From Microbacterium sp. SD291 (GTDB lineage: Bacteria > Actinomycetota > Actinomycetes > Actinomycetales > Microbacteriaceae): a stretch of 64,000 nt of DNA. A program made the translations under genes and the position numbers. Each line of letters starts with the position of its first letter. Position 1 is the first letter of the stretch. The stretch is from positions 62,001-126,000 of the forward strand of contig NZ_JADIJR010000005.1 of the NCBI RefSeq assembly GCF_017355365.1, in the 5' to 3' direction. This document shows, piece after piece, positions 52,957-55,105 of the stretch. The notes below the pieces were generated by a model that saw only the letters and a list, made by a program, of their open reading frames with translations, had not been told where the DNA came from and made no database searches.

Positions 52957-54135
52957 ATGTACGGGACATTCCAGAAGCACGTGTCGACGGAGCTGGCGGG
53001 AATCGAGGAGGCGGGGCTCACGAAGCACGAGCGCGGCATCCGCGGACCGCAGAGCGCCGAGATCACCGCCGATGGCGCGGAGGTGCTGAACTTCTGCGCG
53101 AACAACTATCTCGGCCTCGCCGATGACCCGCGCATCCTCGCCGCGGCGAAGAGCGCGCTCGACGAGTGGGGGTACGGCCTCGCCAGCGTGCGCTTCATCT
53201 GCGGAACCCAGGAGCAGCACCTCGAGCTCGAGCGGCGGCTCTCCGGCTTCCTCGGCACGGATGACGCGATCCTCTACTCGTCGTGCTTCGACGCCAACGG
53301 GGGCGTGTTCGAGACGCTGTTCAGCGCGGAGGACGCGATCATCTCCGACGAACTGAACCACGCCTCGATCATCGACGGCATCCGTTTGTCGAAGGCACGC
53401 CGGCTCCGCTACCGGAACCGCGACATGGCGGACCTCGAAGAGCAGCTGAAGGCGGCATCCGACGCCCGCTTCCGCGTGGTCGTCACCGATGGGGTCTTCT
53501 CGATGGACGGCTACATCGCACCGCTGGCCGAGATCTGCGACCTCGCAGAGCGCTACGACGCGCTCGTGTTCGTGGACGACTCGCACGCGGTCGGCTTCGT
53601 CGGCGAGAACGGCCGCGGCACTCCCGAGCTGTGCGGCGTCGCCGACCGGGTGGACATCTACACCGGCACCTTCGGCAAGGCGCTCGGCGGGGCATCCGGA
53701 GGGTACGTCGCCTCGCACGCCGACATCGTGGCGCTGCTGCGTCAGCGCTCGCGCCCTTATCTGTTCTCGAACACCCTCGCCCCCGCGATCGTCGCGGGCA
53801 CGCTCACGGCGCTCGACCTCGTCGAGGGGTCGGCCGATCTGCGTGCCCGGCTGCGCGCGAACGCGGCGCTGTTCCGCGAGCGCATGAGTGCGGAGGGCTT
53901 CGACCTGCTGCCCGGGGAGCATCCGATCGTCCCTGTCATGTTCGGCGACGCCGCCCTCACCGCCCGCATCGCCACGGAGATGCAGGCGCAGGGCATCTAT
54001 GTGACGGCGTTCAGCTTCCCGGTGGTGCCGCGCGGCCTCGCGCGCATCCGAGTGCAGCTCAGCGCGGCGCACACCTCCGCGCAGATCGAGCGCTGCGTCG
54101 CCGCGTTCGTCGCCGCGCGGGCATCCGTGGGCTGA
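52957..54135 (+). CDS. kbl: Glycine C-acetyltransferase (2-amino-3-ketobutyrate CoA ligase)
   Basis: PLP-dependent alpha-oxoamine synthase family enzyme of 392 residues. It splits 2-amino-3-ketobutyrate with CoA to glycine and acetyl-CoA. Landmarks: [72 protein letters not shown], and the PLP-lysine in [17 protein letters not shown]. It follows tdh by 29 bases, together forming the threonine-to-glycine route. Its stop precedes the operator array by only eight bases. Confidence 0.96.
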
Positions 54136-54142
54136 TCGGAGT

Positions 54143-54216
54143 CGCAAAGATACGTTTGCAAAGAAGTACTTGCAAAGAAGTACTTGCAAAGAGGTCTTTG
54201 CAAGCGTATCTTTGCA
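54143..54216. promoter_or_regulatory. 14-bp-periodic TTGCAAAG operator array and large inverted repeat
   Basis: (T)TGCAAAG half-sites start at 54143 (first base C), 54157, 54171 and 54185, exactly 14 bases apart; the opposite orientation (CTTTGCA) is at 54196 and 54210, also 14 apart. The outer 20 bases on each side (54144-54163 and 54196-54215) are reverse complements with one mismatch. The predicted regulator promoter lies in it: -35 TTGCAA (54184-54189), 17-base spacer, -10 TATCTT (54207-54212). AT-rich against a GC-rich background. Confidence 0.8.
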
Positions 54217-54219
54217 TCC

Positions 54220-54843
54220 ATGACGAACGAGACGCAGATCCGCACCCTGGATGCCGGGGCACTGAAGGCACTGGCGCACCCGCTCCGGGTGCGGATCTTC
54301 GACATCCTGGCGGCCCAGGGGCCGCAGACCGCCAGTTCGCTGGCTGCGCTCGTGGGGGAGACCTCGGGCTCGACGAGCTACCACCTTCGCGCTCTCGCAG
54401 CGCATGACCTCATCCATGAGGTCGAGGGCCGGGGAACCGGCCGCGAGCGCTGGTGGGAGCGGCCCAAGGGGCGGATCGACGTTCCCGGCCCGCAGGACGC
54501 GATGTCGCCCGCGAACAGGGCCGCAGCGCAGATCGTGACCGCGGAGTTCTTCCGGCTGCGTCACGAGACCCTGATGGCGTACCTCAACCGACCCCAGTCC
54601 GAGGTGCCTGCGCCGTGGCGTGACGTCGGCCTCACCATGACGACGCACCTCGACATGACCCCGGCTCAGGTGATGTCGCTGCGCGAGGAGATGGAGACGC
54701 TCGTCGAGAGCGCGATCCGGCGCTACCGCGGACAGACCGGTCCTGACGTGCGGCGCGTCTCGATGCGCGCCGAGATCTTCGACCTTCCGATCCAGGTGAC
54801 GCACTCCGACGTCGCACCGACCAGCACCGAGGAGCGATCATGA
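54220..54843 (+). CDS. ArsR-type winged-helix regulator
   Basis: 207 residues. The N-terminal winged helix is readable as ALKALAHPLRVRIFDILAAQ, TASSLAALVGETSGSTSYHL and the recognition-helix end RALAAHDLIHEV, followed by a wing with GRGTGRERWWER. The C-terminal half (about 95-207) is helical with no cysteine metal site, so it is not a classical metal sensor. ATG 54220 lies seven bases after the array -10 TATCTT, indicating a leaderless, probably self-regulated mRNA. The next ORF overlaps by four bases. The target besides its own promoter is unknown. Confidence 0.85.
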   Translation: MTNETQIRTLDAGALKALAHPLRVRIFDILAAQGPQTASSLAALVGETSGSTSYHLRALAAHDLIHEVEGRGTGRERWWERPKGRIDVPGPQDAMSPANRAAAQIVTAEFFRLRHETLMAYLNRPQSEVPAPWRDVGLTMTTHLDMTPAQVMSLREEMETLVESAIRRYRGQTGPDVRRVSMRAEIFDLPIQVTHSDVAPTSTEERS

Positions 54844-55058
54844 CCACCGCAACGCTTCGCCTCGCCACGCCGACGCCCTTCGAGAAGTCGCTGCAGCACC
54901 TCGCGCGGGCACTCTCCCGTCACGTGGATCGTCGCATCGCCGCCAGGGCGGAGCGCCGGGAACTCGCGCTCGACATGCTCCGCGAGCAGCAGGCCCGGAA
55001 GCAGGACCCGCGCGCCGTCGACCTCGCTCTCGCTCAACTCGGACTGCCGCTGCGCTGA
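54840..55058 (+). CDS. Small helical basic protein, unknown function
   Basis: 72 residues, no recognised family. Highly charged and helical (FEKSLQHLARALSRHVDRR, LALDMLREQQARKQDPRAVD). The ATG overlaps the stop of the ArsR-type gene (ATGA), so it is translated with it and probably belongs to the same regulatory unit. It is followed by a terminator at 55072. Confidence 0.65.
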   Translation: MTTATLRLATPTPFEKSLQHLARALSRHVDRRIAARAERRELALDMLREQQARKQDPRAVDLALAQLGLPLR

Positions 55059-55071
55059 GCGGACCGTGACT

Positions 55072-55105
55072 GACGAGACCCCCTGCCGCGGCAGGGGGTC
55101 TCGTC
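55072..55105. terminator. Terminator between the small gene and the valS downstream gene
   Basis: Perfect 16-bp stem (55072-55087 with 55090-55105) around a two-base GC centre, 14 bases after the small gene stop, between convergent genes; it can act on both strands. Confidence 0.8.

Follow-up and report, generated by a model that had tools for sequence, protein, structure and literature searches.

A ladder of six TTGCAA-type cores, repeated at a step of 14 bp, occupies the predicted promoter of a gene encoding an ArsR-type regulator in Microbacterium sp. SD291, and its register is kept in 57 orthologous loci. The ladder (54142..54217, no strand assigned) lies in the window, which here means the whole stretch of 64,000 nucleotides that was analysed, and the start codon of the regulator gene (54220..54843, + strand, 207 aa) is located 2 bp past the end of the ladder. 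The regulator gene in turn shares an ATGA overlap with a gene for a 72-aa protein (54840..55058, + strand). With a probability of about 0.8, as judged from sequence comparison, this ladder is the operator through which a non-metal ArsR/HTH_20 regulator cooperatively represses its own gene along with that of the co-translated 72-aa protein.

The six cores read TCGCAA at 54142-54147, TTGCAA at 54156-54161, 54170-54175, 54184-54189 and 54198-54203, and TTGCAT at 54212-54217, with their GC at 54144, 54158, 54172, 54186, 54200 and 54214, hence in a single register with members exactly 14 apart. When basic spacings from 7 to 40 were tested in the 64-kb window, only 14 chained more than one core (six cores), with its multiple 28 giving a chain of three, and the longest chain among 60 Markov-1 simulated sequences of 64 kb contained two cores. 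The array is thus confirmed; it greatly exceeds what chance would produce, and its spacing is stricter than the first description had it. The preliminary description had recorded six TGCAAAG half-sites with a 14-base step, four forward followed by two inverted, and a strikingly AT-rich composition. The six copies, their step and the composition (39% GC in the array versus 69% in the window) were all recovered, with five words exact and the copy at 54143 reading CGCAAAG with one mismatch. The two orientations apply to the flanks, since AAG is found to the right of cores 1-4 and CTT to the left of cores 5-6, but the TTGCAA core is itself a palindrome and all cores share one register. Likewise, the outer 20 bases had been described as mirroring each other with one mismatch, but a direct reading of 54143-54162 against 54197-54216 reveals two, and part of this mirroring simply follows from the repetition of a palindromic core in a fixed register.

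One of the main structural features of the ladder is its fusion with the promoter. This emerged from the comparison of the window with 56 loci fetched with the regulator, 51 from Microbacterium and 5 from Arthrobacter and other Micrococcaceae, all 57 of which contain the arrangement TTGCAA-17 nt-TANNNT-6/7 nt-ATG/GTG with at most one core mismatch. The predicted -35 box (54184..54189, + strand) is core 4 itself, reading TTGCAA in 55 loci and TTGCAT in 2, while the predicted -10 box TATCTT (54207..54212, + strand; TATCTT in 42/57 loci, TANNNT in 57/57) runs into core 6. The start codon follows the -10 box after 7 nt in 46 loci and 6 nt in 11 loci, and from this distance transcription is predicted to start at the A of the ATG (54220, + strand), yielding a leaderless mRNA. 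The 17-nt distance between the two boxes is also retained in 26 of 29 more distant loci, some of them from genomes as large as those of Streptomyces, and none of them has 16 or 18 nt. A -35/-10 pair inside the array had been proposed at the outset, and it is upheld by this comparison and not by a consensus sigma-70 scan, which returned no promoter in the array region. Counting from the first base of the -10 box, the conserved cores are positioned at -37, -23, -9 and +5, of which the core at -23 is the -35 box, that at -9 fills the spacer and that at +5 overlaps the -10 box and the start. Because of this overlap, the ladder looks like the operator of an autorepressor, on a promoter that is itself predicted. 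The pair -23/-9 exhibits the highest mean palindromy among the four adjacent core pairs (7.63 of 10) and its symmetry in the spacer is modest, with all three flanking pairs matched in 15/57 loci; in the window this most symmetric dyad, TTGCAAAGAGGTCTTTGCAA (54184..54203, no strand assigned), is a candidate for the primary dimer site. A coding function of the array was also considered and is unlikely, since the start codon lies 6 nt past the -10 box in some loci and 7 nt in others, a difference that shifts the reading frame.

Conservation of the ladder follows that of the regulator. At least two cores are present upstream in all 57 loci and at least three in 55 of them. The common form has four cores, and the six of the window, with two cores upstream of the conserved four, constitute the longest ladder of this set. 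When the loci were aligned on the -10 box, 225 cores with at most one mismatch fell on the 14-bp phase and 0-3 at each of the 13 other phases, and exact cores were spaced 14, 28, 42 or 56 apart and at no other distance. Using an orthologue threshold of E <=1e-40 and a three-core ladder as the pattern in 119 Microbacterium genomes, the ladder was found in 87 of the 88 genomes with a regulator orthologue and in 0 of the 31 without it, with a reversed-pattern control matching in one genome. This removes the concern, raised in the preliminary description, that relatives keeping the regulator might lack the array. Pattern-only scans, extended to the order and the phylum, yielded 26 matching genomes out of 248, with all 20 newly fetched loci adjoining a homologous regulator, and 15 out of 396, with 12 beside a homologous regulator and 3 representing unrelated repeats. 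Regulator-adjoining ladders outside the genus probably include Streptomyces. The ladder is hence both adjacent to the regulator gene and inherited together with it, as expected of a one-component repressor acting on its own gene. In its own genome the ladder is single, as a search allowing up to two mismatches gave 11 matches, five of them being the array, versus 10 in the control, and therefore direct control by the regulator probably extends to its own operon alone. At one of the loci from the order (L260, about 1060-1620) a distance of about 415 bp, which includes a small ORF, separates the ladder and the regulator; the promoter architecture is the same, and the small gene apparently comes first, in an mRNA that is not leaderless.

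As far as the protein is concerned, the regulator scores 46 bits against PF12840 (HTH_20, cut-off 27) and 24.2 bits against PF01022 (cut-off 22), which together with the retention of the ladder sustains the earlier reading of an ArsR-type regulator with a multi-site operator over its promoter. Its AlphaFold2 model (pLDDT 86, 43 sequences, high confidence in the HTH) places an ArsR-type winged helix ahead of a C-terminal region that has two long helices, and matches the folds of CadC, CzrA, NolR and SmtB with Z of about 8-9, which indicates a shared fold and no more. The best solved fold match is Kfla_6221 from Kribbella flavida (PDB 4g6q), with an alignment that spans almost all of the protein (Z 10.8, rmsd 5.2, 163 residues), although it shares 15% identity with the regulator and its entry title gives no operator or ligand. 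Pyrococcus PH1932 (1uly, 2cwe) and the heat shock regulator 2p4w likewise join an ArsR-type head to a helical part at the C-terminus, with Z of about 8; unlike the regulator described here these proteins are archaeal, and the comparison concerns their folds. There is no cysteine among the 207 residues, and the score against the metalloregulator model NF033788 (40.7 bits) lies below its cut-off of 55, and hence the regulator is not a classic metal sensor. A metal-sensing ArsR/SmtB repressor was accordingly rejected on these two grounds, and also on the presence of four to six half-sites versus one short dyad.

The 72-aa protein encoded downstream has 26 aligned homologues in which length and frame are kept, with a median dN/dS of 0.22 and no pair above 1, and so it represents a real gene. 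This protein is basic and under purifying selection, and searches with it against Pfam and NCBIfam gave no match; it may act together with, or modulate, either the regulator or the missing exporter. Such an exporter, of the MFS type (Pfam MFS_3/MFS_1), is encoded behind the regulator in about 36/119 Microbacterium genomes, and no orthologue was found anywhere in the own genome of the window at E<=1e-40, suggesting that this genome lost the MFS gene or never had it. Thus, the initial remark that no transporter is located next door is true of the window, whose operon is no regulator-plus-efflux operon, but it does not extend to the genus. Ladder-bearing regulators are also found beside a divergent ABC transporter (L132) and beside an MFS gene (L146). 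On the upstream side, kbl (52957..54135, + strand), encoding glycine C-acetyltransferase, is the neighbour in 23/57 loci and is regarded as lying outside the system.

These features suggest a mechanism in which the basic unit would be a 20-bp dyad of two TTGCAA half-sites 14 bp apart, a size that fits one winged-helix dimer. That one dimer reads two half-sites with this spacing is suggested by a paralogue with a single dyad (see below) and by the highest palindromy of the pair -23/-9, and the pairing of half-sites is ambiguous because the core itself is a palindrome. Four of these half-sites (-37, -23, -9 and +5) form part of the predicted leaderless promoter, and a ladder filled with dimers would exclude RNA polymerase from the regulator's own promoter. 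Both the regulator and the 72-aa protein, whose translation is coupled to it, would thereby be repressed tightly and probably cooperatively, until an inducer releases the repressor. This inducer would presumably be a small organic compound, because the regulator is without a cysteine metal site. The two additional half-sites present upstream in the window should strengthen or sharpen the repression. Where an exporter gene follows the regulator, as in some relatives, the same arrangement would make up a classic drug- or metabolite-responsive efflux operon. Cooperative or multimeric binding to the array, as originally put forward, can thus reasonably be inferred. A step of 14 bp is 1.33 turns of the helix, which sets each half-site about 120 degrees away from the one before it and brings every third back to the same face, and dimers may hence wrap around the DNA. 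This rotation also speaks against the model, as neighbouring dimers on B-DNA would not share a face and it is not evident that all half-sites can be occupied at once.

Regarding the extent of the operator, it is conceivable, if somewhat doubtful, that the four universal cores constitute the operator, and that the two upstream cores of the window arose by neutral tandem duplication of a 14-bp unit and have no effect. This would agree with the identity of units 2 and 3 of the window, which both read TTGCAAAGAAGTAC, and with the presence of a core with at most one mismatch at -51 in just 15/57 loci and at -65 in 3/57. However, in-phase upstream additions occur in several lineages (L029, L052, L057 and L058), and the AG flank to the right of forward cores is found at -51 in 24/57 loci while the CT flank to the left is found in 3. 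A regulator acting as an activator, or with a dual role, such that binding to the upstream cores recruits polymerase instead of blocking it, is improbable. It could draw on the cores situated upstream of the -35 box (-37, -51 and -65), but all except one of the four universal cores overlap the -35 box, the spacer and the -10 box. An operator overlapping these elements occupies a position typical of repressors. Autorepression hence remains the preferred function, and the regulator may in addition bring about activation at low site occupancy. It is very hard to maintain that the conserved block acts mainly as a promoter with an unusual sequence, as a terminator or as another RNA structure, and not as an array that binds protein. 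The -35 and -10 boxes do account for part of the conservation, and a hairpin-like dyad with two terminator-like predictions is located at 54182-54205, but the cores beyond the promoter hexamers (-37, -9 and +5) are conserved in phase, the 14-bp step is kept in paralogues with other letters, and no genome without the regulator contains the ladder. A terminator or RNA role in particular was rejected, as the hairpin is not followed by a proper T run and loci without kbl upstream also have the array. Scarcely credible is the divergent promoter that had been proposed inside the array to drive leftward transcription toward kbl, as the AAGATA present at 54148-54153 in the window (TATCTT when read leftward) is found upstream of the -35 box in just 3/57 loci and kbl, adjacent in a minority of loci, is transcribed rightward, so that leftward transcription would run antisense to this gene.

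Ladders with the same 14-bp step are not restricted to the TTGCAA core. Other HTH_20 regulators in the genus are preceded by ladders with the core TTGCGCAA, and a class-wide pattern scan for this ladder gave matches in 14 out of 297 genomes, with every fetched locus adjoining an HTH_20-type regulator. Further cores recognised by eye include ATGAAAG / TTGCGCAA / CTTTCAT, TGTGCA and a single dyad of two half-sites, TTGCGAAGAGTTCTTCGCAA. Across these regulator groups the core tracks the recognition helix, which reads E(S/T)SG(S/A)TSYHLR in the TTGCAA group, PANxxSFHLR with TTGCGCAA, TN(T/S)GATSYHLR with TGTGCA and SPASCSFHLR with the mixed form. Individual TTGCGCAA ladders are located upstream of HTH_20 genes at L156, L174, L177-L192, L211, L213 and L216-L218, in Microbacterium and other Actinobacteria, with the helix PANxxSFHLR in most. 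At L203, L206, L212 and L215 three mixed boxes (e.g. TATGAAAG, TTGCGCAAG and CTTTCATA) follow each other in a register of about 14 bp upstream of HTH_20 regulators, and at L198, L200 and L205 TGTGCA boxes about 14 bp apart precede HTH_20 regulators with the helix TN(T/S)GATSYHLR. By eye, no TTGCAA ladder was seen in front of the two most closely related paralogues from this genome (L002 and L003), and most other HTH_20 genes sampled have no ladder upstream. The ladder hence characterises a single clade of full-length regulators, as opposed to HTH_20 proteins at large. It may be entertained, rather tentatively, that this actinobacterial clade binds open-ended ladders with an unvarying 14-bp step, polymerising along the DNA across its own promoter, with core letters that are read by the recognition helix and vary by group.

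Among known systems, a consensus of (A/T)TTAG-N9-A(T/A) is quoted for NolR and an operator of ATTCG-N15-CGAAT for RexT, both of the ArsR/SmtB family (PMC8960804). NolR has a winged-helix fold, as here, and from its consensus the half-sites can be read as roughly 13-14 bp apart, close to the step of the ladder; however, the NolR and RexT operators are described as single motifs of two half-sites (PMC8960804), in contrast to the four to six half-sites that run in one 14-bp register through the promoter in the present case. A precedent for fixed-spacing operators with multiple boxes exists in the IclR family, for which comparative genomics described tandem and three-box sites with fixed spacing, read as binding of tetramers or alternative dimers (PMC8222616). 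These belong to another protein family and have tandem palindromes 18-22 nt apart, about two helical turns, as compared to 14 bp or 1.33 turns here (PMC8222616). In the open-access literature searched, no description of TTGCAA or TTGCGCAA motifs or of ladder-type ArsR operators was found, which is weak evidence for novelty. An autorepressor with repeated operator sites is known, and what is new is the conserved, promoter-fused ladder with a fixed step and its spread to other cores. With its fixed step and a core that identifies the group, such a ladder is a recognisable mark in the DNA of a large set of uncharacterised actinobacterial regulators, whose promoters it singles out without annotation. 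If dimers fill the ladder cooperatively, its variants would offer a natural series of 2 to 6 sites in a single register relating site number to the sharpness of an autorepressor, and the matched recognition helices and cores supply material for a specificity code in the ArsR fold. The window itself presents a context in which the regulator's ladder and the small partner gene are kept and the exporter gene is absent.

Some additional repeats were observed in and around these loci. In the own genome of the window, two close variants of the dyad TTGCAAC-N6-GTTGCA, separated by 33 bp, are located at about 1500-1555 of L094 (C29:16004-16056), upstream of a small gene that by reading is SRPBCC-like and is followed by an ArsR/HTH_20 gene. 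At L245 a strong 22-bp direct repeat (26/28 positions) precedes an HTH_20 gene. In the window, the small gene is followed by a perfect 32-bp palindrome, ACGAGACCCCCTGCCGCGGCAGGGGGTCTCGT (55073..55104, no strand assigned), read from the sequence, which is G+C-rich, has no T run, lies between convergent genes and is a possible bidirectional terminator.
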